Under the pieces are notes generated by a model. The model worked only from the letters and a program-made list of their open reading frames with translations, did not search any database and was not told where the DNA came from. A stretch of 26,591 bases of DNA from a virus, in the IMG/VR virus record IMGVR_UViG_3300047498_000054, positions 1 through 26,591 of that record; one strand, 5' to 3'. Positions 708 to 20,371 of the stretch are shown here, in pieces. Position numbers and translations under genes: made by a program. The first letter of the stretch is position 1, and each line of letters opens with the position of its first letter.

Positions 708-1106
708 TTAGCCTTTCTTTTTCTGTATTTTATAAGTTAATTTTGGTTGACTCATTTCAATAGTTGCCCAGTTTGGCAAATCTTTAACTGTATCTAAATA
801 TTCTTTAATCTCTTTTAATTTGGCAATGCGCTCTGTTTTACAAAACTCATCCGGTACTGCATATGCTGAAATAACCTTAATAGATGCTCTAGGTGTAGTG
901 AAATAAATTTTGTAATCACAATATTCGCCTGGGACATTTACTTCATATTCCCCAGTTCCGGCCAGTTCTTCTTGCACAGAAACTCTAGCGGCATCTGATT
1001 CTCTTTCTGCATCAGCCAAATCCGAATTAAGATCCGCGATATAAGTTTTTAGTTTTTGGATTTTAGCATCAGCTAGTAACCAATCTTTCAATAATTCTTC
1101 AATCAT
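708..1106 (-). CDS. Gp157-like phage protein
   Basis: This 132-residue protein starts with a coiled-coil-like helix (about residues 1-50, rich in Lys/Glu/Asp/Ala). A compact segment follows, with TTPRASIKVISAYAVPDEFC and then KLKEIKEYLDT, resembling the order of the Siphovirus Gp157 family: long helix, then a P-x-S-[IV]-x-V strand, then 'P-[ED]-E-[FY]' and a lysine-rich helix. Its ATG overlaps the ERF stop by four bases, so translation is probably coupled. Gp157-type genes often sit beside SSAP/SSB genes in phages. A Gam-like nuclease inhibitor is the main alternative. The assignment comes from memory of the pattern, not a search. Confidence 0.5.
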   Translation of the reverse strand: MIEELLKDWLLADAKIQKLKTYIADLNSDLADAERESDAARVSVQEELAGTGEYEVNVPGEYCDYKIYFTTPRASIKVISAYAVPDEFCKTERIAKLKEIKEYLDTVKDLPNWATIEMSQPKLTYKIQKKKG

Positions 1107-1825
1107 AACTTACCCTTTTTTGATTCTTCCATAAAACTGTCGTATTTTGTTTTATAGAGTTGTCGTATTTCATTAGCACCATTTTTATCTGCGACATCAT
1201 CACTTGCCGACATAATAATTAACTTTTCATGGTTAAATGATTCTATGTCTTTTAATTTTGTAATGTTTTCTGCCCTGTCAAAAGCATCTTTGCAATTTTC
1301 CACCCATAATTTTCGCAATTCATCAGACTGAAAAGCACCTACACGTTTACCGACAAACTCTTTTTTCTCGTTATCGGTATCTTGTTCGCCCTCGGTTGGA
1401 ATATTAAATATATTAATTGCCAAAGTTTTATATGCTTGTGACATTGCTTTTTGCGTAGACTTGTCGCTATAATCGACGGCTTCTGCGATAATTGCTACAT
1501 TGGTTTTGCTTCCATCAATTGTATTGACTAATTCAAAATCAACTTCCAATACAACCCATATCGCAAGCCCTCCGTTTTTTGTGGTGCGTTCTTTTTCTTC
1601 ACGTTTAACCATCTTAGGAAGGATGACCAAAGCGCATTCTTTCATTATTGGTGAGCTTGCATTGCGTATATCATCAATGCCCCTAAATTTATAATTTATA
1701 TCTTTATTGCCACCCTTGTCTTTTGAAATGCCTTGTTTTGCAAGTATTTCTGTCATCGCTTCAATAGATTGATAAACATTTTGTGGTCGTTGCTTAACTT
1801 CAATTTCTTCTTTTTCTTTTATCAT
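1103..1825 (-). CDS. erf: ERF-family single-strand annealing protein
   Basis: This 240-residue protein anneals complementary single strands during phage recombination. The N-terminal 150 residues carry the ERF pattern: NVYQSIEAMTEILAKQGISK, then INYKFRGIDDIRNASSPIM, a strand reading AIWVVLEVDFELVN, and the hallmark DKSTQKAMSQAYKTLAINIF ending near IPTEGEQDTDN. The C-terminal 80 residues are charged, helical and not conserved in the family, as usual. It heads a recombination block ERF / Gp157-like / SSB-like. A TTTACGCCTCG stretch separates it from the preceding gene by three bases. The family call is strong. Confidence 0.88.
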   Translation of the reverse strand: MIKEKEEIEVKQRPQNVYQSIEAMTEILAKQGISKDKGGNKDINYKFRGIDDIRNASSPIMKECALVILPKMVKREEKERTTKNGGLAIWVVLEVDFELVNTIDGSKTNVAIIAEAVDYSDKSTQKAMSQAYKTLAINIFNIPTEGEQDTDNEKKEFVGKRVGAFQSDELRKLWVENCKDAFDRAENITKLKDIESFNHEKLIIMSASDDVADKNGANEIRQLYKTKYDSFMEESKKGKL

Positions 1826-3734: not shown

Positions 3735-3738
3735 TTGC
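3687..3738 (+). other. Strong bulged hairpin over the VapE start
   Basis: Left arm 3687-3701 pairs with 3724-3738 over 15 bp (two G-U in RNA). After a five-base bulge (TTAGA), 3707-3712 pairs with 3718-3723 around a CCCCT loop. In total 21 bp form, with no T-run after it. The TTG at 3735 lies inside the right arm. It may control translation or be a protein-binding or replication-initiation structure. Confidence 0.75.
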
Positions 3739-5069
3739 GCCAAAATTCGCATGTGACAGATGAACTAACTGTTATAAAGCCAGAGTTACCCCTTGTTTGT
3801 GGAGCAAACCCCAACAACAGAGTAATTATCAATGGCCACAATTATCACGGGGTGGAAAGAAAACTCCTGCAAAATGTCATGGTTTTGACCGAAACGGATG
3901 AGAGAATAAGAGAATGCCTGATATATAATGTATTCGCTGATGATATTTTCTTCGTCCAGCCGCCACCATGGGAAGATGAAAAGACATTCAAGGTTCATCC
4001 ATTGAGGGAAGATGAGTTATTGAATTATCGGTGCTGGGTGGACACTCGCGGCCTGATTGTCGGCAAGAATGATGCAAGCGACATCCTCACATCACTGGCC
4101 AGGCGCAACACCAGAAACCCGCCCAAAGAATATTTTGAAAAGCTTAAATGGGATAAAAAGCCGCGCCTTGATACGTGGCTCACCTACTACTTAGGCGCTG
4201 AAGATCAGAACGAGCATTACTTAAAGCTTGTGGGCAGCAAGTGGATGATAGCTGCTGTTAAGCGCATCTATCAACCGGGTTGCAAGTTTGATAACGTGCT
4301 CATATTGGAAGGAGATCAATACATAGGTAAAAGCCCATCACTTGAGGCACTAGCAACCATCGGCGGAGAGCGATATTTTACTGATGAAAGCATAGATTTT
4401 AACGGCAATAAAGATAGCCTAATGAAGCTACAAGGCAAACTGATATTTGAAATGCCGGAACTGGCCAGCTTTCGCAAGGCTGAAACAAATGAAATTAAGG
4501 CGTTCATTGGGCGCGGCACTGATGAATATAGGCCACCGTATGGCCGCAAGATCATATCACGTCCACGCATGTTTGTCTTTGCTGGCAGCGTGAACCCAAT
4601 AGCCGGGTATTTGACCGATCCTACAGGCAATAAGCGCTATTGGCCAGTGAAGTGCGGCAAGATAGATATTCCAGCTATAAACGCAGATAAAGAACAATTA
4701 TGGGCGGAGGCGGTTTGTAGATATAAGGCAAATGAGCAGATTTGGCTTGAACCAGAGGAGCACAATCTTGCCAAGCTCGAACAACAAGAGCGCATGATTG
4801 ACGATATTATGATGGATAAAATTATAGATGCGGCAAAAGAAATTACAGCAAATAAATGGACTGATAAGGATTTTACCTTATCGGAACTAGTAGAAAAGTT
4901 AAACATACCGCTTTCCCACCTAGATAACAAAATGCGCACCAGGATAACCGATTGCCTGGTTGCAAATGGATATATTGAGTATATGCCAGCAGCAAACGCA
5001 GGAGAAAAACGCAAGCGGAAGTGGAAGATGCGGAATGAGGTAATTAAACCCCATTCCCGCAATGATTAA
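3735..5069 (+). CDS. VapE/VirE-family P-loop NTPase (putative replication helicase)
   Basis: The product resembles virulence-associated E proteins, SF3-like P-loop NTPases that in phages and satellites act in replication initiation. Residues about 115-190 are the family lead-in (LARRNTRNPPKEYFEKLKWD, then W-L-T-Y-Y-LG), Walker A is GDQYIGKS at 193-200, and an acidic Walker B-like strand KLIFEMPELASF follows near 235. NPIAGYLTDPTGNKRYWPVK is the sensor/arginine region. The C-terminal 70 residues look like a winged helix. No primase domain is present. The start is uncertain: TTG 3735 or GTG 3753, neither with a clear ribosome site. The stop overlaps a convergent gene. Confidence 0.85.
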   Translation: MRQNSHVTDELTVIKPELPLVCGANPNNRVIINGHNYHGVERKLLQNVMVLTETDERIRECLIYNVFADDIFFVQPPPWEDEKTFKVHPLREDELLNYRCWVDTRGLIVGKNDASDILTSLARRNTRNPPKEYFEKLKWDKKPRLDTWLTYYLGAEDQNEHYLKLVGSKWMIAAVKRIYQPGCKFDNVLILEGDQYIGKSPSLEALATIGGERYFTDESIDFNGNKDSLMKLQGKLIFEMPELASFRKAETNEIKAFIGRGTDEYRPPYGRKIISRPRMFVFAGSVNPIAGYLTDPTGNKRYWPVKCGKIDIPAINADKEQLWAEAVCRYKANEQIWLEPEEHNLAKLEQQERMIDDIMMDKIIDAAKEITANKWTDKDFTLSELVEKLNIPLSHLDNKMRTRITDCLVANGYIEYMPAANAGEKRKRKWKMRNEVIKPHSRND

Positions 5070-5248
5070 AGTGTAGGATCTACAACTTCTTGTACAGTAT
5101 ATCCGTGTTCTTTTAATTTGTTTATCACATCCAAGGGTAAATTTGGTTTCCCCAAAATCTCTTGAAAAAATACCCCCAAGTCGTTAGCTGCTTTATAGTC
5201 AATTCTTCCAAACACTTTATGCGCCTTAACTTCTACTAATTTTTCCAT
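5066..5248 (-). CDS. Hypothetical protein, 60 aa
   Basis: This is the last gene of the leftward operon that begins near 7683; its stop overlaps the VapE stop. The product is small and mixed alpha/beta (KAHKVFGRIDYKAANDLGVF, then LPLDVINKLKEHGYTVQEV). It lies four bases after the preceding gene. No family recognised. Confidence 0.55.
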   Translation of the reverse strand: MEKLVEVKAHKVFGRIDYKAANDLGVFFQEILGKPNLPLDVINKLKEHGYTVQEVVDPTL

Positions 5249-5252
5249 AGTT

Positions 5253-5390
5253 TTATGCTTTCAATGTGATGTTAAAATTAATGCGGTCTTTCTTTCCGTT
5301 GAGATAGCCTCGCAGGTATTGACGAGAGCCGCCGGAGACACAAGCGCGGCCTAGCAATCCGTCAATATAACCGTCTAGCTGTGTTCTCAT
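5253..5390 (-). CDS. Hypothetical protein, 45 aa
   Basis: The ATG at 5390 overlaps the upstream stop as ATGA, and the frame runs to a TAA at 5253. The product begins MRTQLDGYIDGLLGRACVSG and ends DRINFNITLKA. Overlap on one side and a four-base gap on the other support a real tiled gene. Function unknown. Confidence 0.55.
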   Translation of the reverse strand: MRTQLDGYIDGLLGRACVSGGSRQYLRGYLNGKKDRINFNITLKA

Positions 5391-5584
5391 TTCCACAACT
5401 CCACAGGCTTTGCCACATCATCCGGCGTTAAACCGTAGATAGAAGCGATTACAGCGGCTTTGTGTGTTTTCCATACGACCACATGCTTAGGATGTACCCA
5501 CACGCTAGAAACCTGTTTGCCGTATGAATACGATGCTAGGTAAATGAATGCACCAGCGGTTATGATGAATATTAGTTTTTGCAT
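5387..5584 (-). CDS. Hypothetical membrane-anchored protein, 65 aa
   Basis: The N-terminus (MQKLIFIITAGAFIYLASYS) is a hydrophobic helix, either an uncleaved anchor or a signal sequence. The rest is a small soluble domain with PKHVVVWKTHKAAVIASIYG. It sits in the tiled minus operon between the Zn-finger gene and the 45-residue gene. Function unknown. Confidence 0.58.
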   Translation of the reverse strand: MQKLIFIITAGAFIYLASYSYGKQVSSVWVHPKHVVVWKTHKAAVIASIYGLTPDDVAKPVELWK

Positions 5585-5589
5585 GTTAT

Positions 5590-5739
5590 TTACTCCTCAT
5601 CAAATATGGTTAAAAGTTTTCCATTTTCCCTACACGATTCACAAACGCAATTATCCGGGTAATCGACCGTATAAAGACTGTCACAATCATAATCGGTATC
5701 TACCAAGCAATCGCAAAATTTACATAGCATCATGCTCAT
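5590..5739 (-). CDS. Small zinc-ribbon-like protein, 49 aa
   Basis: Starting at 5739 with an ATGA overlap to the upstream gene, the frame encodes LCKFCDC near the start and NCVCESC near residue 35. Two CxxC pairs suggest one bound zinc ion. The protein is acidic (YDCDSLYTVDYPDN). It ends with a GAGGAG that could also serve as ribosome site for the next gene. Exact role unknown. Confidence 0.6.
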   Translation of the reverse strand: MSMMLCKFCDCLVDTDYDCDSLYTVDYPDNCVCESCRENGKLLTIFDEE

Positions 5740-5963
5740 AATTCCACCATCTGGTCGCAATCACACAGCGGGCAAGTGATCTGGGTTTCTGGCAAATTAT
5801 ATTCCTCATTGCAATCAGGGCAGAAAAACCATACGTTTTCAGGCATGATGTCATCCTCTTGGTGAAAATTCACTGAGAGTTTATTAGATGTAATCTCCTG
5901 TAATTTCTTGATTGTATGTTTTTCCAGTGAATTTTCACCGGTATTTTTCTCTGCATTACTCAT
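5736..5963 (-). CDS. Zinc-ribbon protein, 75 aa
   Basis: The start at 5963 is preceded by GGAGG at normal spacing and overlaps the upstream stop as ATGA; a longer frame to 5999 is ignored. The N-terminal half is polar and helical; the C-terminal half carries FFCPDCNEEYNLPETQITCP with a second pair CPLC, a classic zinc ribbon. A perfect 15-bp inverted repeat (5861-5875 and 5925-5939) lies inside the gene. Two zinc-ribbon genes in a row suggest nucleic-acid or protein binding roles. Confidence 0.65.
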   Translation of the reverse strand: MSNAEKNTGENSLEKHTIKKLQEITSNKLSVNFHQEDDIMPENVWFFCPDCNEEYNLPETQITCPLCDCDQMVEL

Positions 5964-6157
5964 AATTTCCTCCAAAATGCATAACGTGGTGCCGTCCATA
6001 TCGGAGTAGCCGTTCGGCGCTGCGTACCTTCATCTACAAGCAGCGTAGGCCACGCTAAAGCGTTATGGTGCTCATCCCATGATGGCATAATGCTTTTAAC
6101 CCTGATAACTCGTGTGTAATTACTTCTGGTTATAAAATTCCAAAAACGTGTTTTCAT
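5960..6157 (-). CDS. Hypothetical protein, 65 aa
   Basis: The ATG at 6157 overlaps the upstream stop as ATGA, and the stop overlaps the zinc-ribbon start the same way. The product is rich in Trp, Arg and Thr (MKTRFWNFITRSNYTRVIRV). No domain recognised. The tight tiling is the main support. Confidence 0.5.
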   Translation of the reverse strand: MKTRFWNFITRSNYTRVIRVKSIMPSWDEHHNALAWPTLLVDEGTQRRTATPIWTAPRYAFWRKL

Positions 6158-6354
6158 ACCATCTCCTCTACAAATTCTGTTGGCTCATCATCCATATTTT
6201 TCCATCCATATTCTGTTGCTTCCTGCCAGCGTCCTTTCTTCCCCATCTGCCGTTGTCCGTCTTTTTTGTACGGCAAATAGCGGATTGAAACGAGCGCAAG
6301 GATAGGCGTACCATCCATAGGTGCGCCTGCTATGGGTTTACGGATTAATGTCAT
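6154..6354 (-). CDS. Hypothetical protein, DUF551-like pattern
   Basis: This 66-residue product starts MTLIRKPIAGAPMDGTPILA and ends with a Trp-rich EYGWKNMDDEPTEF. That resembles small phage proteins with a 'strand, DGTxILA, long strand, W, EP' layout, somewhat like DUF551, but the match is not firm. It is tiled by four-base overlaps to both neighbours. Confidence 0.5.
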   Translation of the reverse strand: MTLIRKPIAGAPMDGTPILALVSIRYLPYKKDGQRQMGKKGRWQEATEYGWKNMDDEPTEFVEEMV

Positions 6355-6682
6355 TTGCTTACCCCATTATCTTCGGCTATTTGTTTCCCTGCTTCATAGG
6401 CATCAAGTATTACCAATAACTGTGTTTTTGATAAAGGCTCGACATAGTTGTTATTGACCTGCTCTGCAAAATGCAGCCCATGCGGATCAATTTTATAGCG
6501 CAATATCGCGCACTCCCATTTTTCAGAAGTGTGGCTATATGTCCGGCGTTAGCACCAGTTAAATCGCTTTCGCCTTCCAGCAATTGAAATACGTAGCTGT
6601 ATATATCATCGGATAGCATTTTCATCCGTTCTTCGTCTGATTTTGTCATGCTTGGCGCTTGTGTGCATAATGGATTGCTCAT
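6351..6682 (-). pseudogene. Phage protein gene split by a -1 frameshift
   Basis: From the ATG at 6682 (AAAGGA upstream) the frame reads well to LTGANAGHIATLLKN and then continues as unlikely sequence to a stop at 6410. Near 6519-6523 (five T on plus, five A in the mRNA) the -1 frame takes over and reads KKWECAILRYKIDPHGLHF, then EPLSKTQLLVILDAYEAGKQ, ending at 6351 with an ATGA overlap to the next gene, exactly as its neighbours do. One extra A would restore a protein of about 110 residues. It could be a true mutation, a sequencing error in a homopolymer, or programmed slippage. Function unknown. Confidence 0.72.
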
Positions 6683-6758
6683 TGATTTTTTCCTTTCTTC
6701 GCTATTTCCAATAATTCATTAGATATTTTAATAAGCGCGGTTAAACATAGGTAGAATC

Positions 6759-6784
6759 GAGCAGGGGAATATTATCCCCTGCTC
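6759..6784 (-). terminator. Hairpin downstream of DUF932 gene
   Basis: GAGCAGGGGA and TCCCCTGCTC form a perfect 10-bp stem around a six-base loop, eight bases after the DUF932 stop. There is no T-run on either side, so it is not a classic intrinsic terminator. It may slow transcription, protect the mRNA end or act as a partial terminator before the small-gene operon. Confidence 0.5.
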
Positions 6785-6792
6785 TGTACTAA

Positions 6793-7683
6793 CTACGCTG
6801 CTTTCAATTCCTGCATTTTGGCTGCAAGTGTCCACAAGGCGCGGTTAAGGGTAACATTGCCGTCAATGCTCTGGACTGGGCGTGTATGACGATATGTGCG
6901 ATTGCCTTTTGCGTCACGATGCACATATCCAGCGCCTCCTTGGATAAGGTTTTCTTGGACACGATTAAAGGTTTTCCACATATCATTTCCTTGATCGTCA
7001 CCACGACGAGCAGAAAGAATCTGCTTTGGCTCAACAGGCGCTGCTTTAACTTCGCCGTTATCATCTTTGGCCACATAGCGCAATTCTAATGCTGCCGCTG
7101 CAAATGCCTCAGCTTCACCATTGTTCAGCGTCAAGGCTTTCATATCCTCAACACGTTCAATAGCTGATTCGGTGTTGTCGATGATTTTATATGCTCCTTC
7201 GATCACATTGTTGATAATATCGCCTTTATGGGCAATTCGCTGCATTTCGCCACCTTCGCAGGTAATCAAGCCATTTGAGCAAACGATGCGGAACAAACCA
7301 GACATTAGCTGATAGCTTGATGTGCCATCGTGCGCATTCAAAAGAATTAACTCTTTCACCGAATCGCCTGCAACCAAGCCAACATTAGAAGTATGGCGCA
7401 AGCGCAACATATGCTTGGTGAATCCGCGCTTTTCATCATCCTTTGAACCGCCTTGACGCACTTCATAAGGCATAAAACCTTCAGCCTGTAATCCCTTTAA
7501 AACTTCTGATGTAGGAATATAGGTGTAACGTTCCGAGCGTGAACCATGCGCCGATTCTGCGAATATAGATGGTGCCGCATCACGTAATTGTTGCTCGCTC
7601 AAAGCTTCGTTATTGCGTGAACGCATGATTACAGCGCCTTTACCAAAACGAGCTACTTTTGCGGAATTGAATGACTGAAACAT
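6793..7683 (-). CDS. DUF932-family protein
   Basis: This 296-residue protein matches DUF932, a family common on phages and plasmids with no settled biochemical role. Visible hallmarks: ALSEQQLRDAAPSIFAESAH, YTYIPTSEVLKGLQAEGFMP, HMLRLRH, LILLNAHDGTSSYQLMSGLF followed by FRIVCSNGLI, and NRVQENLIQGG near the end. A ribosome site AAGGGGA lies eight bases before the ATG. It is the first leftward gene from the 7684-8145 control region. Length is typical. Confidence 0.88.
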   Translation of the reverse strand: MFQSFNSAKVARFGKGAVIMRSRNNEALSEQQLRDAAPSIFAESAHGSRSERYTYIPTSEVLKGLQAEGFMPYEVRQGGSKDDEKRGFTKHMLRLRHTSNVGLVAGDSVKELILLNAHDGTSSYQLMSGLFRIVCSNGLITCEGGEMQRIAHKGDIINNVIEGAYKIIDNTESAIERVEDMKALTLNNGEAEAFAAAALELRYVAKDDNGEVKAAPVEPKQILSARRGDDQGNDMWKTFNRVQENLIQGGAGYVHRDAKGNRTYRHTRPVQSIDGNVTLNRALWTLAAKMQELKAA

Positions 7684-8070
7684 AATGAATCCCCTTAAAT
7701 CATTAGATGCTTAATTGCACCTAGTAACTATAGTTATACAGATAGCATTTAACAGTTACAGCAATATATTTGCATATTTGTGCAATAAATAACTTGACGC
7801 TGATTTATAATGATAAAAGTCGTATAAGTCTAGTAACTTACTTATTCTATGCACACGGATTTTTTAGCGTGTGCTGAAATGGTGCATCGGGTAAGTGTCA
7901 GTATTATAACAATATGTCAAAATCATATCAATGGGTTATGAGTCATGCACACGAAAATGCACAAAGTGCTCTAAACATATTTCACCTACTCAACAGTATG
8001 TACCTGATCATATATATAGCTGTGCATCTGTGCATTATCTATATTATATATAATACTCAATAGTTTACGA

Positions 8071-8108
8071 TGCACAAAGTCTGCACAAAGTCTGCACACG
8101 GCACAAAT
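8071..8108 (+). repeat. Tandem 11-bp repeats TGCACAAAGTC
   Basis: TGCACAAAGTC occurs at 8071 and 8082, followed at 8093 by a variant beginning TGCACACGGCACAAA. A further TGCACAAAGT is at 7958. The 11-bp spacing is close to one helical turn. They end two bases before the -35 box at 8111, as activator sites or iterons would. Confidence 0.75.
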
Positions 8109-8110
8109 AT

Positions 8111-8139
8111 TTGACAGAATCGTTATAAATCAATAGAAT
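8111..8139 (+). promoter_or_regulatory. Sigma70-type promoter of TerS-like gene
   Basis: TTGACA (8111-8116), a 17-bp spacer and TAGAAT (8134-8139). Only six bases separate the -10 from the ATG at 8146, so the transcript should start at or next to the start codon. Confidence 0.75.
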
Positions 8140-8145
8140 GGCTCT

Positions 8146-8487
8146 ATGAAGGAAAGAATCAGCGAAATACCTGCCCAAAGATCGCCCGATGCCCCAAAGG
8201 AGGATGCACAGCCGTTTGTGTTTATTCCTGACCTAAGCGACGATGAACTGCGCAAACTCGCCAGGGAGAAGCTTTCTGAGGCATTGCAGGCCATAAATCC
8301 ACGAGATCAGCCGGAATTGACGCGAAAGCTTGTGGCCGAGGTTAAAGATCGGCTCGATGGGAAGCCAACACAGGCAATAGACCTGCATCAAAAAATCGGT
8401 ATTGTTGCCATTGTGATGGAAGCCGCTAAGCTAAAATCCATTGACCCACTACTAATAGATTCAAAGCCTTCTAATATTGAAACATAA
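8146..8487 (+). CDS. Putative terminase small subunit
   Basis: This 113-residue protein has a polar, Pro-rich first third, then a helical segment ELRKLAREKLSEALQAINPR and AEVKDRLDGKPTQAIDLHQK, a phrase common in small terminase subunits. It lies just before the large terminase, the normal position. No classical HTH is obvious. There is no ribosome site before the ATG and the promoter -10 is six bases away, so it is probably leaderless. It could instead be an unrelated small head protein. Confidence 0.5.
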   Translation: MKERISEIPAQRSPDAPKEDAQPFVFIPDLSDDELRKLAREKLSEALQAINPRDQPELTRKLVAEVKDRLDGKPTQAIDLHQKIGIVAIVMEAAKLKSIDPLLIDSKPSNIET

Positions 8488-8785: not shown

Positions 8786-8815
8786 TTGCCAAGAGGGGGT
8801 GGGGTCTGCTATAGT
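8786..8815 (+). promoter_or_regulatory. Possible promoter of terminase gene
   Basis: TTGCCA (8786-8791), an 18-bp G-rich spacer and TATAGT (8810-8815). Start of transcription would be near 8822, about 34 bases before the chosen ATG. Confidence 0.45.
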
Positions 8816-8855
8816 TGTCGTTGTAAATTTTTTCTGGAAATTTTTTAAACTTTGT

Positions 8856-10304
8856 ATGAGCTTAGCCGAAGCAGCGTGTAGATTTCAGGTTTGGCGTGAC
8901 CATCCAGACGTGTTTGTCAACGAGGTATTGGGCATAAAGCCTGATCATTGGCAGCTAGAGGCATTACAGGCGTTTCCACATAATCAGCGTATAGCTCTTA
9001 GTGCGTGCAAAGGCCCAGGGAAGACGGCGGTTTTGAGTTGGTTAGCGTGGAATTTCCTATTAACGCGGCCATATCCAAAAATAGCTGCGACGGCTATTAC
9101 AGGTTCTAACTTAGCGGACAATTTCTGGACGGAGTGCGCAAAAACCCAGCAGCGCAGCAAATTATTGACGGAAGCATTCACTTACACAAAGACAAGGATT
9201 TTTCTAACAGAATCGCCGGAGACGTGGTGGATGTCGGCGCGGCCATGGAGTAAGTCTGCGGATGCGTCTGAGCAGGGGAATACACTTGCTGGGTTACATG
9301 CGGATTACATTTTATTTTTGATAGACGAGTCTGGTGATATTCCTGAGTCGGTGGCGATGGCGGCGGATGCGGCACTTTCAAGCTGTATTGAGGGTCGAAT
9401 TGTCCAAGCTGGAAACCCAACGAGTTTGCGGGGAATGCTGTATAAAGCTTGCACCCGCGATAGGAAACTATGGTATGTGATCAATATCACATCAGATCCA
9501 CTTGATCCCAAGCGTACACCTCGAGTAAGCATTGAGTGGGCACAGAACCAAATTGACATGTATGGCCGCGAAAATCCGTATGTAAAAGTTAATATTCTTG
9601 GGCAATTTCCTGATGCTGGGTTTAATTCTCTGATAGGCGTTGATGAGATTGAACAGTCTATGAAGCGCTCATACCGTGAGCCGGACTATAGTGCCCATGC
9701 GCGTATACTGGGTTGTGACGTTGCCAGGGGCGGAATGGATAAGAGCGTGATTTATCCACGGCAGGGGTTGCAAATGTTTAATCCGCTTATTTACCGCAAC
9801 ATTGACGGCAACCGAGGCGCGGAGATTGTGAGTAGGAAATATCAGGAATGGGACGCGGACGCGGTCTTTATTGACGACACCGGCGGCTTCGGATCAAGTT
9901 GGATTGATAATCTGAATCGGTTGGGGTTTTCGCCTATCGGGGTGCATTTTAGCGAAAAATCGAATAATCCGCAGTTTTACAACAAGCGTACAGAAATTAT
10001 CTTTGAATTGGTAAACTGGATAAAAAGAGGCGGTGCGTTGCCATATAGTGCCGAAATGCTGGCGTCATTGACAGAAACGACTTATACGCACAAGGGGGAA
10101 TGTCTTATCATTGAGCCAAAGGAGTTAATCAAAGATAGGCTTGGGTATAGCCCGGATGAAATGGACGCCGCAGCTTTAACATTTGCCCAGCCTGTTATGC
10201 GCATGTCGCAGAACCCCGCGTACAATCATGCGAATAAGTTAAGATCAAATTACAATCCTCTTGATCCTAATTATATAAAAAAGATGCTTGCAGAAAGGCG
10301 ATGA
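8856..10304 (+). CDS. terL: Terminase large subunit (DNA packaging ATPase/nuclease)
   Basis: It cuts and pumps phage DNA into the prohead. Starting at ATG 8856 (482 residues) it carries the Walker A ACKGPGKT (about 51-58), the Walker B-like strand ILFLIDES (about 152-159) and the motif IVQAGNPTSLRGMLY. The C-terminal RNase H-like nuclease domain has GCDVARGG (about 286), AVFIDDTGGFGSSW (about 337) and DEMDAAALTFAQP near the end, giving three acidic positions. An upstream in-frame GTG at 8799 would add 19 hydrophobic residues and overlaps promoter-like sequence, so it was not chosen. The family call is firm. Confidence 0.93.
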   Translation: MSLAEAACRFQVWRDHPDVFVNEVLGIKPDHWQLEALQAFPHNQRIALSACKGPGKTAVLSWLAWNFLLTRPYPKIAATAITGSNLADNFWTECAKTQQRSKLLTEAFTYTKTRIFLTESPETWWMSARPWSKSADASEQGNTLAGLHADYILFLIDESGDIPESVAMAADAALSSCIEGRIVQAGNPTSLRGMLYKACTRDRKLWYVINITSDPLDPKRTPRVSIEWAQNQIDMYGRENPYVKVNILGQFPDAGFNSLIGVDEIEQSMKRSYREPDYSAHARILGCDVARGGMDKSVIYPRQGLQMFNPLIYRNIDGNRGAEIVSRKYQEWDADAVFIDDTGGFGSSWIDNLNRLGFSPIGVHFSEKSNNPQFYNKRTEIIFELVNWIKRGGALPYSAEMLASLTETTYTHKGECLIIEPKELIKDRLGYSPDEMDAAALTFAQPVMRMSQNPAYNHANKLRSNYNPLDPNYIKKMLAERR

Positions 10305-10544: not shown

Positions 10545-10660
10545 TTACCCCAGCAAGCAGGTGGGCAACTGCATTTTATTTGTATAGTGTTCAGTGCGGT
10601 TTGGGAAATAACAGCTTGCAGGCAAGGCTGGCACAACCTCTGGCTGGTGACTTGCCATGA
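10541..10660 (+). CDS. Hypothetical protein, 39 aa
   Basis: The frame starts with an ATGA overlap to the previous stop (10541-10544) and ends with an ATGA overlap to the SDR start (10657-10660), so it fills the gap exactly. The product begins MITPASRWATAFYLYSVQCG and ends LAGDLP. Precise tiling is the only evidence that it is translated; it may couple translation of the SDR to the upstream gene. Confidence 0.55.
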   Translation: MITPASRWATAFYLYSVQCGLGNNSLQARLAQPLAGDLP

Positions 10661-11592
10661 AAATTTTAGTGCTTGGAGCCACTGGCTTCATAGGCCACAA
10701 TATAGCGCAATATTTTTCAATGCTTGGTCATGATGTCATTGGTGTATCGCACATTCGTGAAGCAATAGAAATTCCGAATGTAAAATGGATTTACCATTTT
10801 GATCTTTGTTCTCCTGATCGTGTACATAGTATTTTTAAAGATATTAAAAATATTGATGTTGTAATACAAGCCGCTGCAACCACCTCTGGTTCAAAAGATA
10901 TAGTTAATACTCCGGCGATCCACGTTACAGATAATGCCATTATGAATGCGCTGATATTTCGTGCGGCAGTTGATGCAAAAGTAAGGCATGTTGTTTTCTT
11001 TTCATGCACCACCATGTTTCGTCACGGTGTGGTTGCGGAAGATTCTACAATTGATATTCACGATAAATATTTCGGCATAGCGTGGACAAAATTATATAAC
11101 GAAAAAATGTGCGAATTTTACTCTCGCATTGGCGATACAAAATTTACTGCGATACGTCATTCAAATATTTATGGGCCACACGATAAATTTGATCTTGAGC
11201 GTAGCCACGTATTTGGTGCCACAATTCGCAAGGTGATGGATGCGACATCAGATGTTACGGTGTGGGGTTCGGGCGAAGAGGCGCGTGATTTGCTATACGT
11301 GGATGATTTGTGCTCATTTGTGGATGCTGCAATTGAAAAGCAGCCAGGGAAATTTGGTTTGTATAATTGCGGATATGGGCATTCAACTTCCATTAATCGC
11401 TTAGTTGATAGAATTATTGCAACGTCAAGAAAAACATTGCAGGTGAAACATGATTTGACTGCGCCAACAATTCCAACATCCCTTACGCTTGATTGCACAA
11501 AATCAAGAAAAGAATTGGGATGGAAACCAAATGTTACGCTTGATGAAGGCATCGCAAAAACCATTAAATGGTATAAGGAGAATATCGCATGA
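10657..11592 (+). CDS. Extended SDR, nucleotide-sugar epimerase/reductase-like
   Basis: This 311-residue protein has the Rossmann motif GATGFIG (7-13), the D-x-V-I-Q-A-A-A strand (about 67-74), SCTTMF in the catalytic-serine region (about 116) and the downstream IRHSNIYGPHDKF substrate segment, as in WcaG/GDP-fucose synthase relatives. The usual YxxxK is altered: Lys145 is present (GIAWTKLYNEK) but the residue four before it is Ile141, with a Tyr only at 138. It may therefore be an epimerase-only or divergent enzyme. It probably acts on the GDP-sugar made by the other cluster genes (inference). Confidence 0.82.
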   Translation: MKILVLGATGFIGHNIAQYFSMLGHDVIGVSHIREAIEIPNVKWIYHFDLCSPDRVHSIFKDIKNIDVVIQAAATTSGSKDIVNTPAIHVTDNAIMNALIFRAAVDAKVRHVVFFSCTTMFRHGVVAEDSTIDIHDKYFGIAWTKLYNEKMCEFYSRIGDTKFTAIRHSNIYGPHDKFDLERSHVFGATIRKVMDATSDVTVWGSGEEARDLLYVDDLCSFVDAAIEKQPGKFGLYNCGYGHSTSINRLVDRIIATSRKTLQVKHDLTAPTIPTSLTLDCTKSRKELGWKPNVTLDEGIAKTIKWYKENIA

Positions 11593-11837
11593 AATTTTTT
11601 ATCATTATTATGTTTTTATCTTTCCCTGCATATGCAGATTACTATTCTGATAATGCTGCCCAGCGCGAAGTTGAGCAAGACCAGCAATACAAACAGCAAG
11701 TGGAAATTGACAATCAGCGCACGGAGATGCACCGGCAGCAAGAAGAGATTGAGCAGCAAAGGGCGCAATATAGACAGCCAGATGTGCAATACGTTCCCTA
11801 CTCCAATCCAAATCCATCTCCAAACGTGATGAGGTAG
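11589..11837 (+). CDS. Secreted Gln/Glu-rich small protein
   Basis: The N-terminus MKFFIIIMFLSFPAYA is a textbook signal peptide with a likely cleavage after AYA. The mature part is a Gln/Glu/Arg-rich coiled coil (VEQDQQYKQQVEIDNQRTEM) with a Pro/Asn-rich end. It is coupled to the SDR gene by ATGA. An exported protein inside a sugar operon of a phage suggests an effect on the host envelope (inference). No family recognised. Confidence 0.68.
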   Translation: MKFFIIIMFLSFPAYADYYSDNAAQREVEQDQQYKQQVEIDNQRTEMHRQQEEIEQQRAQYRQPDVQYVPYSNPNPSPNVMR

Positions 11838-11838
11838 T

Positions 11839-12822
11839 ATGGGATTCTATACGGGAAAAAAAGTTTTGGTAACTGGCGGCACAGGCCTAATTGGCAGGCC
11901 GCTGGTTAAAATGCTTATTGAGCAGGGAGCGGATGTGACGGTGGCATCATTGGATGATGCGCCAGTACCTCCGATTGGCTCAAGGTTTATTCAAGCGGAT
12001 TTGCGCTACTTTGATTCATGTCAAGAAATATGTGAGGATATGGATATCGTATTTCAATTGGCCGGTATTAAGGGGTCGCCCGTCGCTACATCAAAACAAC
12101 CAGCATCGTTTTTTGTTCCCACACTGCAATTCTCGACCAACATGATGGAGGCTGCCAGACTATCTGGTGTTGGCTGGTATCTTAATACCAGTTCCGTTGG
12201 TGTATATGGCCCAGCGGAAGTATTCCATGAAGATGCTGTCTGGGACGATAAACCATCAACGCACGATAAATTCGCTGGTTGGGCCAAGCGTATAGGGGAG
12301 ATGCAAGCTGAGGCATATAAAATTGAATATGGTTGGGATCGCGTTTCTATTGTGCGTCCTGCTAATGTTTATGGCCCATTTGACAGTTTTTCTGATAATA
12401 GTGCTATGGTTATACCGTCTCTGATAAAAAGAGTCGTAAATGGTGAATATCCCCTTAAGGCATGGGGCGACGGAAGCCCTATTCGTGATTTTATTCATGC
12501 CAGGGATTGTGCTCGCGGTATGATGATCATGGTCGAAAACGGGGTAACCGAGCCTGTAAATCTTGGTTCTGGGGTTGGCGTAAGCATAAAAGAGCTAGCT
12601 GAAACTATCGCCGGGGTGATGAATGTGCCGGTAGAATGGGATACGACAAAGCCAAATGGTGACGCAAAGCGCCTTATGGACACTAAAAGGGCTGAATCTT
12701 ATGGATTTAAACCGGAAATTAGCCTTGTGGACGGTATTATTGAGACGATAGACTGGTATAAGGCCAATATTGGGTATTCAGGGCGCTACAGTTCTTTTGA
12801 CGAGCATAAAGAAGTGTGCTAA
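11839..12822 (+). CDS. Extended SDR, GDP-sugar epimerase/reductase-like
   Basis: This 327-residue protein has GGTGLIG (13-19), FQLAGIKGSPVA, the serine region LNTSSVGVYG (about 115-124) and IVRPANVYGPFDSF. Lys150 of the catalytic pair is visible in KFAGWAKRIGE, but the residue four before it is Ala146 instead of Tyr, like the change in the SDR at 10657. The C-terminal part (AWGDGSPIRDFIHARDCARG) is typical of the family. It follows the secreted gene by one base. Its substrate is probably a GDP-deoxyheptose (inference). Confidence 0.82.
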   Translation: MGFYTGKKVLVTGGTGLIGRPLVKMLIEQGADVTVASLDDAPVPPIGSRFIQADLRYFDSCQEICEDMDIVFQLAGIKGSPVATSKQPASFFVPTLQFSTNMMEAARLSGVGWYLNTSSVGVYGPAEVFHEDAVWDDKPSTHDKFAGWAKRIGEMQAEAYKIEYGWDRVSIVRPANVYGPFDSFSDNSAMVIPSLIKRVVNGEYPLKAWGDGSPIRDFIHARDCARGMMIMVENGVTEPVNLGSGVGVSIKELAETIAGVMNVPVEWDTTKPNGDAKRLMDTKRAESYGFKPEISLVDGIIETIDWYKANIGYSGRYSSFDEHKEVC

Positions 12823-12844
12823 AGTCAATAAAAAAGAGGTTATC

Positions 12845-13030
12845 ATGCCATCAAAAAGCCAAGAACAAGAAAAACTCATGAAAATAGCCGCCCACACCAA
12901 GGGTGGATACGGTGGGGTTCCCCAAAAGGTAGGTGCTGAATTTGAGGCCGCAGATGAAGCCAAATCTGGTCATAAAAAGACTCGCTCCGAAAAGATTAAG
13001 TCCATGTATTCTAAGAAGGACAAAAAATAA
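12845..13030 (+). CDS. Small basic phage protein with MY(S)KK tail
   Basis: The start at 12845 has AGAGG upstream. The product begins MPSKSQEQEKLMKIAAHTKG and continues VPQKVGAEFEAADEAKSG. That layout, MPSKS-x-Q-x-x-LM-x-x-A and then V-A-x-E-F-x-x-A-D, is familiar from short conserved phage proteins near portal genes. The end, EKIKSMYSKKDKK, resembles the tails of the scaffold and of the protein at 25656. It overlaps the next gene by one base. Confidence 0.66.
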   Translation: MPSKSQEQEKLMKIAAHTKGGYGGVPQKVGAEFEAADEAKSGHKKTRSEKIKSMYSKKDKK

Positions 13031-13266
13031 TGGGAATATTTGGTGGCCCGTCAGCCCCTACCGCCCCACCAGCGCCGCCGCCTATGGCCGCGCCCGCAAC
13101 ACAAGCTAATCCGCAGGTGGCTTCTACAGCGGCATCCAATAGGGCAAGAGCAGCAGCAGCCGGTGCGAACAGCGGCGGCACGAATCCGACAGGCCCGCAG
13201 GGATTGCAAGCTTCGCCATCCACAGCACCAGCAACCTTACTTGGTTCCACGAGTACCAGCCAATGA
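13030..13266 (+). CDS. Small Ala/Pro-rich structural protein
   Basis: This 78-residue protein begins MGIFGGPSAPTAPPAPPPMA and has SNRARAAAAGANSGG followed by GPQGLQ and ATLLGS near the end. Many podoviruses have a protein of this composition and ending beside the portal gene, thought to be a minor head component. It is coupled to the gene before (shared base) and after (ATGA). Role not established. Confidence 0.62.
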   Translation: MGIFGGPSAPTAPPAPPPMAAPATQANPQVASTAASNRARAAAAGANSGGTNPTGPQGLQASPSTAPATLLGSTSTSQ

Positions 13267-13388
13267 GCGTTACCCCTAAAATAGCTAATGGTGCACATGT
13301 TCGCAAACAAAGGCGCAGTGTGCGGAAACGTAAACTTGCTAAAGTAGAGGTATTAAACTTAGCAAAGCATGGATTGAAGAGAAATTAA
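13263..13388 (+). CDS. Small basic protein, 41 aa
   Basis: It begins with an ATGA overlap at 13263 and ends at a TAA at 13386-13388. The product is strongly basic (AHVRKQRRSVRKRKLAKVEV). It could bind DNA or RNA inside the head. It lies 22 bases before the portal gene. No family recognised. Confidence 0.55.
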   Translation: MSVTPKIANGAHVRKQRRSVRKRKLAKVEVLNLAKHGLKRN

Positions 13389-13410
13389 CCTTACACAAAA
13401 GAATAAAAAG

Positions 13411-15249
13411 ATGGCAACAAATGCCACAAAAAACGAAGACGTAAATTACGAAAAGTCAGGGCCAGCACTGCTGGCTGCCCAACCTTCCGTTGCGAAAACA
13501 AAGAGCAAGGGTAAGGAGTCTAATCCAGAATGGAATACCCTTCGCGGGCATCTGGAGGCTAGGCTTAATTCCCTATACACATGGCGGCAGTCGTGGTGGA
13601 CTCAGAATTGGTCTGATTTATCGCAGTTCTTGCTTCCTCGCCGCTCAATCTGGCTGACGCAAAGCACTGGTGGCACCCCCACACCGAATAACATGACTCG
13701 CGGGCGGGAGATTAACCAGTCTATTCTTGATCCTACTGGTACTTTTGCTGTCCGTGTTTGTTCTGCTGGCCTGATGTCTGGCCTGGCGTCCCCTTCTCGA
13801 CCATGGTTTAAGGTTACAACAAAACTAAAGAACTATCAGCCAGATGCAGATGGGCGTATCTGGATGGATGAAATTGAAAATCGTATATACACAGTTTTGG
13901 CTGGATCTAATTTTTATAACTGCTTTGCACAAGAGTGTGAAGACCTTGTTGTATTTGGCAGCGCGTGTACAATCATCTACGAAGACGACAAGGATTTGAT
14001 CCGCTGTTATAGCCCTTGCATTGGAGAGTTCTTTTTTTCTTCTGGCGCGTCATTGCGTGTTGATGGTTTATATCGCCGCTTTCTGATGACGGTATCGCAA
14101 ATCGTGGACTTCTTTGGCCTTAAAAACTGTCCTGGCGAAGTACAGAAGCTATGGCAGGCGAAGGGTAGCTCGTTGCAAATTGAGAAAATCATTGCACATA
14201 GCATTGAGCCAAATTTTGGCATTGGCCAATCTAATGCAGGTAAGGTTCCGGGCAATTTTACATGGCGTGAAGTCTATTGGGTATACGGTGCGGCCAATGA
14301 CAAACCGCTTTCCATGCGTGGGTTTATTGACCAGCCATTTACTGCTTCACGGTGGGCTACGCAGGCTAATGACGCATACGGCAGATCGCCGGGTATGGAC
14401 GTCATCCCTGATGTTATGCAGTTGCAGGTTGAGTCCATGCGCAAAGCAGAAGCATTGGAAAAACAGGTAAGGCCGCCATTGCTTGCGGATGCGCAGCTTA
14501 AGAATCAACCGGCGTCAACGTTACCGGGTGAAGTAACTTATATTCAGAACCTGTCTGCCACCAATGGGATGCGTTCTATCTATCAGGTCAATCCCGATAT
14601 TCGCGGCATGATGGAAGATATCGCGTCTATACAGCAGCGGATAAAAATAGGGTTTTTTAATGACCTATTTTTAATGTTGCATGAGGGGCCGGACAAAGAC
14701 ATGACTGCTACAGAAGTGCAGGCTAAACTCCAAGAAAAGATGATGGTGCTTGGGCCTGTAGTAGAAAATTTACTTACAGAATCTTTGAAGCCAAAATTGC
14801 ATAGGATATTTAGCATTCTTCAGCGGCGCGGCATGTTACCGCCGATGCCAGATTCAATGAAGGGCGTACCGCTTGATATAGAATTTACAAGCATCATGGC
14901 CGTTGCTCAGCGTGCCGCCAGCACCGGCGGCTTAGAACGCATTGCATCCATGATAGGTAATCTTGCTGCCGTATATCCAGAAGCAAAAGATGTTATGGAT
15001 GTTGATGCATTCCTGCGTGAGTTTAACGAATTACTTGCCAACCCACAGAAGATATTCCGCTCGCCGGAAGCTATGCAGCAGTTGCGTGAACAGCAGCAAA
15101 AACAACAGGCAGCCGCTACGCAGATGGCCGCAGCACAGCATGGAGCACAGACCGCGAATATCGGCGCACAAGCCGCACAGACGCTTTCAGAGACACAAAT
15201 CGGCGGCGGTGCCACGGCGTTATCACAGCTTATGGGCAGCAAACAATGA
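13411..15249 (+). CDS. Portal (head-to-tail connector) protein
   Basis: This 612-residue protein is a podovirus-type portal of the BPP-1/T7 connector kind. Hallmarks are SLYTWRQSWWTQNWSDLSQF, then LLPRRS, SILDPTGTFAVRVCSAGLMS, followed by ASPSRPWFKV, LVVFGSAC and FNDLFLMLHEGPDKDMTATE. The C-terminal 70 residues are a Gln/Ala-rich coiled coil. Twelve copies form the ring through which DNA enters. The start at 13411 has only a weak AAAAAG upstream. It is followed by three small tiled genes. Confidence 0.92.
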   Translation: MATNATKNEDVNYEKSGPALLAAQPSVAKTKSKGKESNPEWNTLRGHLEARLNSLYTWRQSWWTQNWSDLSQFLLPRRSIWLTQSTGGTPTPNNMTRGREINQSILDPTGTFAVRVCSAGLMSGLASPSRPWFKVTTKLKNYQPDADGRIWMDEIENRIYTVLAGSNFYNCFAQECEDLVVFGSACTIIYEDDKDLIRCYSPCIGEFFFSSGASLRVDGLYRRFLMTVSQIVDFFGLKNCPGEVQKLWQAKGSSLQIEKIIAHSIEPNFGIGQSNAGKVPGNFTWREVYWVYGAANDKPLSMRGFIDQPFTASRWATQANDAYGRSPGMDVIPDVMQLQVESMRKAEALEKQVRPPLLADAQLKNQPASTLPGEVTYIQNLSATNGMRSIYQVNPDIRGMMEDIASIQQRIKIGFFNDLFLMLHEGPDKDMTATEVQAKLQEKMMVLGPVVENLLTESLKPKLHRIFSILQRRGMLPPMPDSMKGVPLDIEFTSIMAVAQRAASTGGLERIASMIGNLAAVYPEAKDVMDVDAFLREFNELLANPQKIFRSPEAMQQLREQQQKQQAAATQMAAAQHGAQTANIGAQAAQTLSETQIGGGATALSQLMGSKQ

Positions 15250-15467
15250 AACCCGCAAAAAACCTTGAAGTAGAAAAAATTGAAGATGAACACGCGCCAC
15301 ATTTAGATAATATTATTAATGGCGGGTTAATGCGTACCAATACTCCTGAGCATATTGAGGATGAATTGTTGAAACGCGGCTTGATTTATCGCGCCACGGG
15401 TGGTCTAATGCCAACAGATGATGGTCAACGCGCATTGATGCAGTGGCAGAAGGAAAACTTCAAATGA
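15246..15467 (+). CDS. Hypothetical protein, 73 aa
   Basis: The ATG overlaps the portal stop as ATGA. The product is helical with a possible winged-helix arrangement (EDELLKRGLIYRATGGLMPT, then DDGQRALMQWQKENFK). Three such small genes follow the portal gene in a row. Role unknown, perhaps a head-tail assembly factor. Confidence 0.65.
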   Translation: MKPAKNLEVEKIEDEHAPHLDNIINGGLMRTNTPEHIEDELLKRGLIYRATGGLMPTDDGQRALMQWQKENFK

Positions 15468-15688
15468 CAGAAAAAACTCAGGCACAGCTTCTTACAGATT
15501 TTCTTGAGGGGCTAAATGAAATGGCTGGTGCTGCTGGCGTGATGATTCACCATCATCAGGATTTACGTTGGCACTTTATTCGCCAGATTATTGAAGAGGC
15601 ACATGCTGCAACCGTAAAGTTAGCGGTTAACCCCATGACCGCCCCAAGAGTAACCAGACACGAAAAGAAAACACAGATACTTGTATGA
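15464..15688 (+). CDS. Hypothetical protein, 74 aa
   Basis: Start 15464 is chosen for its ATGA overlap with the previous stop; the longer frame starting at 15443 is not. The product is mostly helical (QLLTDFLEGLNEMAGAAGVM, then a His-rich turn HHHQDLRW and FIRQIIEEAHAATVKL). Its stop overlaps the next ATG. No family recognised. Confidence 0.62.
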   Translation: MTEKTQAQLLTDFLEGLNEMAGAAGVMIHHHQDLRWHFIRQIIEEAHAATVKLAVNPMTAPRVTRHEKKTQILV

Positions 15689-15918
15689 CCGACATTACTG
15701 AAGCCCAGACAATTGAATATTTTATGCAAGGCGCAAGAAAAGCCAAATCTGCTGCCCGTGAATTAGCAAAACTTAATCAGACTCATGCATGGACAGCTAT
15801 TCGCAGCCAGCTTGGTATGCTTGAAAAAAATGCTCACAAGATATACAATGACAAGCCACAAACACGCTTACAGACACTTGATTTAGCCATGAAGATTAGT
15901 GGTGACGCAAAACACTAA
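15685..15918 (+). CDS. Hypothetical protein, 77 aa
   Basis: This is a helical, Ala/Lys-rich protein (FMQGARKAKSAARELAKLNQ, then LGMLEKNAHKIYND). It is the last of the three small genes behind the portal. Its stop overlaps the stop of the convergent thiamine-enzyme gene, which marks the left border of the embedded sugar block. Confidence 0.62.
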   Translation: MTDITEAQTIEYFMQGARKAKSAARELAKLNQTHAWTAIRSQLGMLEKNAHKIYNDKPQTRLQTLDLAMKISGDAKH

Positions 15919-16490
15919 GCGTGATATTTTTCGACCCACTCTACAAGTAGCGTTGATCCTTCTCTTTGCATTGCATCTTTATACGCAGGTACAATCTGTT
16001 CTGCCGTATGCAACCGCACTACCTTAACCGTCGATAGCATTGCCTCAATAGCATCCGTGTAGTTACCTATATGCTGGGGGCCGGGATCGAGCGGATTGAT
16101 TGTGGCAATGGATGTGCGGATAATTACTTTGGGCTTATAGTCGCTGAACAGCGGTATTTTATCGAGGTGTTGAACGAGTTGTGGTATCGCTTCCAACATG
16201 AAATTAATGCGAGGGTAGCAGGTGCATACCAGTTGCCCAGTAAGCGAAATACCAGTTGCCATCCCAAGTTGAGTGCTTTCGAATATTGGCATCTCGATAC
16301 GCTGATCTATAGGCACATCACGAAAAGTTGAATTCATGGCAGTACCAGCATCGCGAACTGTCTGTCCGGTAAAAATGCAACCATTATCGGAAAGCATCTT
16401 CATGGCAGCACATAGATTTTCAAAATATTCGTTCAAAACTGGATACGGCGTCCCGCGCCCGAATGTGGATAATGTTGTGACAAATCCCAT
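15915..16490 (-). CDS. Thiamine-diphosphate enzyme, beta (pyrimidine-domain) subunit
   Basis: The protein resembles the Pyr domain of PDH-E1-beta/transketolase. RIEMPIFESTQLGMATGISL holds the glutamate that activates the thiamine ring, and the end has DPGPQHIGNYTDAIEAML and TVKVVRLHTAEQI. It stops before the transketolase C-terminal domain, so it is only about 175-191 residues. ATG 16490 is the longest start, but recognisable similarity begins at the TTG at 16436, which overlaps the alpha stop; ATG 16403 is another option. With the alpha subunit it should transfer a two-carbon unit (inference). Confidence 0.78.
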   Translation of the reverse strand: MGFVTTLSTFGRGTPYPVLNEYFENLCAAMKMLSDNGCIFTGQTVRDAGTAMNSTFRDVPIDQRIEMPIFESTQLGMATGISLTGQLVCTCYPRINFMLEAIPQLVQHLDKIPLFSDYKPKVIIRTSIATINPLDPGPQHIGNYTDAIEAMLSTVKVVRLHTAEQIVPAYKDAMQREGSTLLVEWVEKYHA

Positions 16491-17023
16491 TGATAATAAT
16501 AGTCTGGTTTAATACCCCGATACTCAGGCCATACGTCTTTAGTAATGGTGCATACGCTTTTACCGTTGTCCTCAACGACAGATACTAGTGGCAGATCATG
16601 TTCTTTTGCATAATTATAGCACTCCATAGCGATACCAGTCTGTGCCGTCATATCGCCAATACAAACCCACACTTTATTGCTGCTGCCCATTCTTTTTAAT
16701 TGCCAAGCAACACCGAGCGCAATTGGTATGATGCCAGCAACTATTGCTGATGAAAAGAATCTATGTTCTGGCGAGCACACGGTCATTGACCGCCCCGCCA
16801 TAATTTGACGGCGCACTTCTTCGGGCGGTATTCCAGCTAACAATGCGTGATAATGATTTCGCCACTGACTGAAAAAATAATCTCCATTTTTAAAATCCTT
16901 GAAGATTTTTATCAGGGCGTCTTCATTGCCTTTTGAAAGATGAATTGGATACGGGATTTCAGCATTATTAAATGCTGTGGCTATTGAAGTTTCAAAATCA
17001 ATTAGTTCTTGTTTTGTTATCAT
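16433..17023 (-). CDS. Thiamine-diphosphate enzyme, alpha (PP-domain) subunit
   Basis: This 196-residue protein resembles PDH-E1-alpha. It has the N-terminal IPYPIHLSKGNEDALIKIF and SQWRNHYHALLAGIPPEEV, then EHRFFSSAIVAGIIPIALGV, and the cofactor motif GDM...x...EDNGKS, matching the GDG-(x25-30)-N pattern for Mg-thiamine-diphosphate. It ends with HYPHSGAGRRIQF, about 120 residues shorter than PDH-E1-alpha. ATG 17023 is used because a -10 TATAAT lies six bases upstream, so the gene is probably leaderless. Adjacent deoxysugar genes suggest a sugar-branching reaction as in yersiniose (inference). Confidence 0.78.
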   Translation of the reverse strand: MITKQELIDFETSIATAFNNAEIPYPIHLSKGNEDALIKIFKDFKNGDYFFSQWRNHYHALLAGIPPEEVRRQIMAGRSMTVCSPEHRFFSSAIVAGIIPIALGVAWQLKRMGSSNKVWVCIGDMTAQTGIAMECYNYAKEHDLPLVSVVEDNGKSVCTITKDVWPEYRGIKPDYYYQWDLSQHYPHSGAGRRIQF

Positions 17024-17057
17024 GAGGTGATTATAATCACCCACATGGAAAAGACAA
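17009..17057. promoter_or_regulatory. Divergent promoter pair sharing a palindromic -10
   Basis: GTGATTATAATCAC (17027-17040) is a perfect palindrome with TATAAT on both strands. Rightward: TTGTTT (17009-17014), 17-bp spacer, TATAAT (17032-17037), seven bases, ATG 17045. Leftward: TTGTCT (complement of 17052-17057), 16-bp spacer, TATAAT (complement of 17030-17035), CACCTC, ATG 17023. Both transcripts would begin at or beside the start codon. Confidence 0.7.
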
Positions 17058-18908: not shown

Positions 18909-19203
18909 TGCAAATGATCCAAAACAGATTGCTAAAGCAAAAAAGCAGGCAGAGTTTAATGACGCTTTGAAGTTGGATGTTATTCGCGGTATTATGGCTA
19001 GTCCAGCGGGGCGTCAATGGATATACGGTATATTGGAGCGTTGCCACATTTATGGCAATCCCTTTACACCTGGGCAGAGTGATTCTACCGCTTTTAACCT
19101 TGGTGAAGCTAATATCGGAAGGATTTTTCTTTCTGATGTTCAGTCCGCTGCCCCGGATCTTTATCTGACAATGATACAGGAAGCAAAGAATATTTCTGCA
19201 TAA
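18898..19203 (+). CDS. Bbp19-like phage protein
   Basis: This 101-residue protein reads DVIRGIMASPAGRQWIYGIL, then CHIYGNPFTPGQSDSTAFNL and DLYLTMIQEA. The order 'helix; G-R-x-W/F-x-x-x-L-L-E-x-x-x-x-x-x-x-F; D-x-x-x-T-A-F-N-x-G; L-Y-x-x-M' matches the Bbp19-like domain of BPP-1-type podoviruses, found between portal and capsid genes. It overlaps the kinase gene by 11 bases although it belongs to the head module, and its 3' end overlaps the convergent aminotransferase gene by 95 bases. Confidence 0.78.
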   Translation: MGYDANDPKQIAKAKKQAEFNDALKLDVIRGIMASPAGRQWIYGILERCHIYGNPFTPGQSDSTAFNLGEANIGRIFLSDVQSAAPDLYLTMIQEAKNISA

Positions 19204-20368: not shown

Positions 20369-20371
20369 ATA

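Follow-up and report, generated by a model that had tools for sequence, protein, structure and literature searches.

The region between the DUF932 gene and the terminase operon

The stretch of DNA analyzed here (the window) is a 26.6-kb virus DNA (IMGVR_UViG_3300047498_000054), which may be a fragment. A first leftward gene block, a rightward gene for a VapE-like helicase and a second leftward block precede a rightward packaging and head operon that starts at 8146 (Table 1). The first ORF of this operon (113 aa) was taken as the probable terminase small subunit gene (terS); a protein search with it returned no relatives, and its N-terminal 47 aa match the equivalently placed ORF of the relative L092 (36%). 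Between terL and the head genes (10657-22426) lie four nucleotide-sugar epimerase-like genes and an aminotransferase gene, a large sugar-modification set. Two neighboring minus-strand ORFs at 15915-17044 match the two halves of phrog_34187 (positions 7-193 and 238-404) and represent a split gene or a frameshift.

Table 1. Coordinates of genes, sites and promoter in the window, with counterparts in L092.
Feature	Position	Strand	Remarks
Mu Gam-like protein	708-1106		Leftward gene block
ERF recombinase	1103-1825		Leftward gene block
VapE-like/SaPI-Rep-like helicase, proposed initiator	3735-5069	+	PF05272, PDB 7pds
Codons of the predicted C-terminal winged-helix-like domain (about residues 360-430), proposed iteron reader	4812-5024	+	
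Second leftward gene block, including DUF932 (6793-7683)	5066-7683	-	Between helicase gene and putative origin
Intergenic region with putative replication origin	7684-8145	.	462 bp, 67% AT; flanked by DUF932 gene (leftward) and terS-like gene (rightward)
Outlying TGCACA iteron	7779-7784	-	
Inverted iteron pair TGCACACG..CGTGTGC, hairpin-capable	7850-7874	.	Exact copy at 7850 (+), near copy GTGTGC at 7869 (-)
Direct iteron pair, 12 bp apart (7946, 7958)	7946-7963	+	Just right of conserved anchor ATCAATGGGTTAT
Iteron pair, 8 bp apart (8021, 8029)	8021-8034	-	
AT-rich core, 83% AT, candidate unwinding element	8035-8070	.	Between oppositely oriented iteron sets, 8021/8029 (-) and 8071-8105 (+)
11-bp phased array TGCACAAAGTC TGCACAAAGTC TGCACACG-GCACA (8071/8082/8093)	8071-8105	+	Closed by partial/near copy GGCACA at 8100
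Sigma70-like promoter TTGACA-17-TAGAAT into the terS/terL operon	8111-8139	+	
Probable terminase small subunit, 113-aa ORF	8146-8487	+	Assigned by position
Terminase large subunit (terL)	8799-10304	+	Nearest relatives in Xanthomonas CP2-like phages, 47-48%
L092 inverted pair TGAGACAAG..CTTGTCTC	4771-4803		Counterpart of window 7850-7874
L092 direct pair TGAGACGTGAGACA, right of anchor ATCAATGGGTTAT			Counterpart of window 7946-7963
L092 minus-strand pair TGTCTCTATGTCTC	4924/4932	-	8-bp spacing, as window 8021/8029
L092 GAGACAAGATT GAGCCAAGAAT GAGTTGAGCA at 11-bp phase, partly degenerate, up to the promoter			Counterpart of window 8071-8105

An earlier note on this DNA had described about ten TGCACA/TGTGCA motifs in both orientations over about 330 bp, at a density far above chance, and both statements held. 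The intergenic region contains nine exact hexamers, accompanied by two or three near copies, against 0.86 expected; none of 5000 dinucleotide shuffles reached nine (maximum 5). The sites, in both orientations, reach about 330 bp upstream of the terminase promoter. The window-wide count that the note had called for gave 15 hexamers in the other 26.1 kb, making 24 in total against 22.4 expected, which is chance level, so the signal is purely local. With a score built on exact 6-8-mers, which misses degenerate iterons, the region reached 10.3 (best of 400 shuffles, 3.7) and ranked second in the window, behind a 27-bp tandem repeat. That repeat occupies the extreme left end of the record (1-250; unit CTGGATGCCGCCGTGCTGGAGTAGCCA, 9.3 copies, 94% matches); Manatee Spring phage MW202485 has a similar, CATCCAGC-rich repeat inside a hypothetical gene (L096 25918-26350). 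A blastn search of the cluster region against named phages gave no match.

The finer layout also agreed with the note: the 11-bp phased copies were recovered (TRF unit TGCACAAAGTC), the hairpin corresponds to an inverted GCACACG/CGTGTGC pair at 7851-7857/7868-7874, and the promoter beside the phased copies was found where expected, the last iteron standing a few base pairs from its -35 in the window as well as in L092. The predicted transcription start falls on or next to a conserved ATG (MKERIS..) in both (window 8111-8160, L092 5047-5100), and the terS-like message may therefore be leaderless or nearly so. GC skew, proposed as a further check, reaches a minimum around 8-9 kb; since its course across the whole window mirrors the direction of the genes, it was not used as evidence of an origin.

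The helicase and the corresponding region of a relative

The helicase (444 aa, no fused primase domain) belongs to PF05272 (4.7e-72) and matches PDB 7pds ("PriRep1 with dsDNA") by sequence (2e-36) and profile (1.6e-96). A structure model from a 74-sequence alignment (pLDDT 91; a 3-sequence version with pLDDT 38.8 was discarded) matched the 7pds fold over residues 15-436 (Z 34.4, 397 residues, 25% identity; next entry 13.6). By PF05272 and 7pds, then, the window encodes the type of initiator used at SaPI/PICI-type origins, an element-encoded VapE/SaPI-Rep-like SF3 AAA+ helicase. The C-terminal domain, for which the alignment to 7pds extends to residue 436, is predicted to consist of two strands and the helices 360-373, 382-388 and 398-410; in the model it resembles a winged helix and is predicted to bind DNA.

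Relatives were sought via each neighbor gene of the cluster. The helicase search returned L092, whose helicase is 69% identical over residues 20-436, and L093, at 47%. L092 corresponds to the window in the helicase, the putative origin and the start of terS; no terL, portal or head-protein similarity was detectable within the fetched L092 DNA, and the leftward block 5066-7683 has no equivalent between its helicase gene and origin region. The intergenic scaffold of L092 is that of the window, with the anchor ATCAATGGGTTAT, a CATATATATA block and the promoter TTTGACAGAATC-N-TTA..AATCA, and the promoter block from TTTGACA through the -10 is identical at 24 of 30 positions. The site blocks have the same order and orientation (inverted pair, direct pair, minus-strand pair and phased series; Table 1). 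The hexamer itself is different: L092 has seven exact copies of GAGACA and none of TGCACA, vs. nine TGCACA and no GAGACA in the window. The two helicases are 77% identical in the core and 49% in the C-terminal region. From the sequences, a joint swap of about ten scattered sites is what would be expected for the binding sites of one protein whose specificity has changed. The earlier note had named a lack of conservation in relatives as an argument against its observation. TGCACA is indeed not conserved in L092, while the positions, orientation and putative role of the sites are, and this test would thus have been misleading.

Between helicase and terminase operon, three other relatives carry private iterons placed around AT-rich DNA: TGTCACA (x5) and TGGAACA (x4) in L093, GTGAAA (x10) in L120 and TGGACGG (x6) in L121. 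The two 7-mers of L093 (8512-8782) are interleaved, as if there were two specificities or a mixed array. A "CTGCACA" cluster in L124 was an apparent match but was not counted; by eye, it has no oriented sets or AT-rich core.

Repeat clusters and helicase genes in other phages

Most named phages that encode the helicase have the strongest 6-8-mer cluster of the stretch no more than 0.6 kb beyond the 3′ end of its gene. The satellites Javan257, Javan431 and bIL312, like these phages taken as positive controls, show the same placement, and every one of them has a private iteron. The private repeats found in named phages and satellites include GCTACA, GGCTAC, AATGCCCC, CGTTTAC, CTGCAACA, TGCAACA, GTGAGA, GTATCCA, GATGGTAC, GTGGGACA and GGGTGACC; the iteron sequence thus appears to vary from phage to phage on a constant layout. 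Among 139 further helicase loci, which are not independent of one another, 81 had the top cluster in this 3′ zone (about 11.8 expected), and scores of at least 5 were reached by 68 downstream zones vs. 2 upstream comparison zones. The top cluster was not in the downstream zone at the remaining 58 loci, part of which may be explained by exact 6-8-mer scoring missing degenerate iterons. Within the dereplicated alignment set, for the 38 helicases scoring at least 5, iteron similarity correlated with C-terminal identity (residues 361-425) after removal of core identity (partial r 0.33, 0 of 300 permutations), vs. a partial r of -0.11 with core identity given C-terminal identity. Iteron similarity tracks the winged-helix region and not the core.

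In the window, the DNA that adjoins the 3′ end of the helicase gene holds no cluster (score 1.1). The intergenic cluster is 2.7 kb away, behind the leftward gene block, and so does not immediately follow the helicase gene, as it does in L092. Similar distances were seen elsewhere. The independent phage L067 has a TGCACACC iteron array (2088-2380) about 3.3 kb from a VapE-like helicase, again a TGCACA-core iteron apart from the helicase gene. In E. coli phage ECOO78 (L113 12301-12700), a very strong iteron-like cluster of GGTGAC (x12) is about 2.3 kb from a VapE-like helicase, and in Acidovorax phage ACF1 (L114 14101-14450), a very strong cluster of GTGGTGCA (x12) is about 4 kb from one, with GGAACA (x7) directly 3′ of the helicase.

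Because the region also carries the terminase promoter, a purely regulatory role is possible, in which the hexamers would be operators of a phage activator or repressor at the late terminase promoter, with no part in replication. Although the array abuts the -35 of a promoter conserved in the window and L092, and its sites are phased at 11 bp, on one helix face, the clusters go with the helicase and not with the terminase. The Xanthomonas phages CP2 and SAC (terminase 47-48%) and L003 (DUF932 gene, 66%), in which PF05272 was not found, served as helicase-less negative controls and have no repeat cluster upstream of terL; operators would be kept with the terminase promoter independently of the helicase, and in these three they are not. 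Dozens of unrelated helicase loci carry a cluster, and the window sites, in both orientations, reach back about 330 bp from the promoter. We consider operators improbable. The separate activator that the earlier note had entertained lacks support, since there was no recognizable candidate regulator among the ORFs scanned and relatives sharing only the terminase side lack the cluster, and it is not required to explain the cluster.

The adjacency of cluster and terminase operon in the window, L092, L093, L120 and L121 might instead mark a packaging (pac/cos) site or a recognition site of the terminase small subunit. This is very unlikely, given that the cluster follows the helicase gene instead in most helicase loci, that in the satellites Javan257 and Javan431 it comes after rep and that terminase relatives without the helicase are also without the cluster.

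The TGCACA hexamer is not in itself a family marker. A scan of IMG/VR for three copies at 11-bp spacing found 86 stretches from many unrelated phages, a mix of coding repeats, DnaA-box-like arrays and other iterons, and L067 was the only one with a VapE-like helicase detectable in its fetched DNA. A recurrent contig family (L006, L012, L017, L020, L025, L050, L054, L061, L064, L070 and L083) has TTATGCACA repeated every 11 bp and then CCTGTGGA(T/A)AAC, an arrangement that looks like a DnaA-box array distinct from the cluster of the window. TGCACA arrays in opposite orientations, separated by about 200-290 bp, occur in L029, L053 and L071 (6-7 copies each way), and also in L063 and L043; these are probably other iteron origins, and no VapE-like helicase was found within their fetched DNA. 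That the window sites are DnaA boxes (TTATNCACA-like) at which host DnaA acts can practically be dismissed: TGCACA is the 3′ part of TTATGCACA, some other phage contigs with the pattern show TTATGCACA next to TGTGGATAA and tandem DnaA boxes can stand 11 bp apart, but the 5′ half TTA is missing at the window sites (e.g., CTA, TCA, AAA, AGA, TAA, CGA, GTC, GTC), the homologous L092 sites (GAGACA) are not DnaA boxes, and a DnaA-box origin was rejected on finding TTATNCACA-like matches not enriched in the window (75 vs. 69.8 expected).

A putative SaPI/PICI-type origin in a tailed phage

The reading we prefer, at a probability of about 0.8, is that 7684-8145 is a phage replication origin of the SaPI/PICI type whose TGCACA iterons would be bound by the phage's own VapE-like helicase; it draws on sequence comparison, structure prediction and analogy. 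Of the two possibilities raised in the earlier note, activator sites and an iteron-type origin, the second is strongly favored by the association of the cluster with the helicase and by the joint switch of sites between relatives; a separate activator is less probable. By analogy with the biochemistry of SaPI Rep and Cch2, the self-loading SF3/AAA+ helicase would bind the iterons via its fast-evolving C-terminal winged-helix domain. Helicase hexamers would form at the iteron sets of opposite orientation, the intervening AT-rich DNA would melt, and the helicase would then load and unwind, initiating replication.

Phage lambda O and iteron plasmids likewise combine iterons with an AT-rich element, but their initiators, which load host DnaB, are not helicases; no initiator of the lambda O/plasmid type was recognized in the window. 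The similarity to SaPI and PICI origins of Gram-positive and Gram-negative bacteria is closer, with short element-specific iterons in at least two oriented sets flanking AT-rich DNA and an SF3/AAA+ helicase with a C-terminal DNA-binding domain, predicted in the window, as initiator (PMC6092414; PMC7581432). In Gram-negative PICI origins, an AT-rich region is always bracketed by two iteron sets; for one such element the cloned replication region was tested for plasmid maintenance (PMC6092414). SaPI Rep uses its C-terminal domain at an iteron origin that directly follows rep; the C-terminal domain of Cch2, in purified form, binds the putative origin of Cch2 (PMC7581432). As the window helicase would do, Cch2 of SCCmec binds direct repeats (AAGTG iterons) via its C-terminal domain, the repeats standing just downstream of its own gene (PMC7581432); unlike the window, it is a D5-type helicase with three iterons only. 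PriRep1 (PDB 7pds, "Similar to D. nodosus vapE") comes from another element and host, and the predicted fold of the window helicase matches it over the full length, including the C-terminal domain. In contrast to SaPIs and PICIs, the window is a tailed phage that encodes its own capsid and terminase. A PICI as a whole element is a satellite without a full structural module, and the presence of terL, a head-tail adaptor and a major head protein in the window identifies a phage and not a PICI. Its helicase also differs in having no fused primase domain. What is unusual in the window is the distance between the helicase gene and the putative origin, and the overlap of this origin with the terminase promoter, to whose -35 the iterons extend.

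This adjacency suggests that binding of the initiator affects late (terminase) transcription. More tentatively, the iterons of this lineage could serve both as origin and in control of the late terminase promoter, so that their occupancy would couple replication to the onset of packaging-gene transcription. The whole array would switch specificity together with the helicase C-terminal domain, which would insulate the origins of co-infecting phages. We regard this dual role as possible but doubtful.

The layout of PICI origins has been described as common to no other known bacterial replicon (PMC6092414). Our comparison places a PICI-like layout widely in tailed phages, a point on which literature coverage may be incomplete. 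Most tailed-phage origins are unmapped, and a simple rule, that a private 6-8-mer cluster around AT-rich DNA near or 3′ of a VapE-like helicase gene is a candidate origin, would apply to dozens of phages and prophages. Coordinated iteron switches that correlate with the helicase C-terminal domain amount to a natural experiment on how the specificities of an initiator and its origin change jointly.
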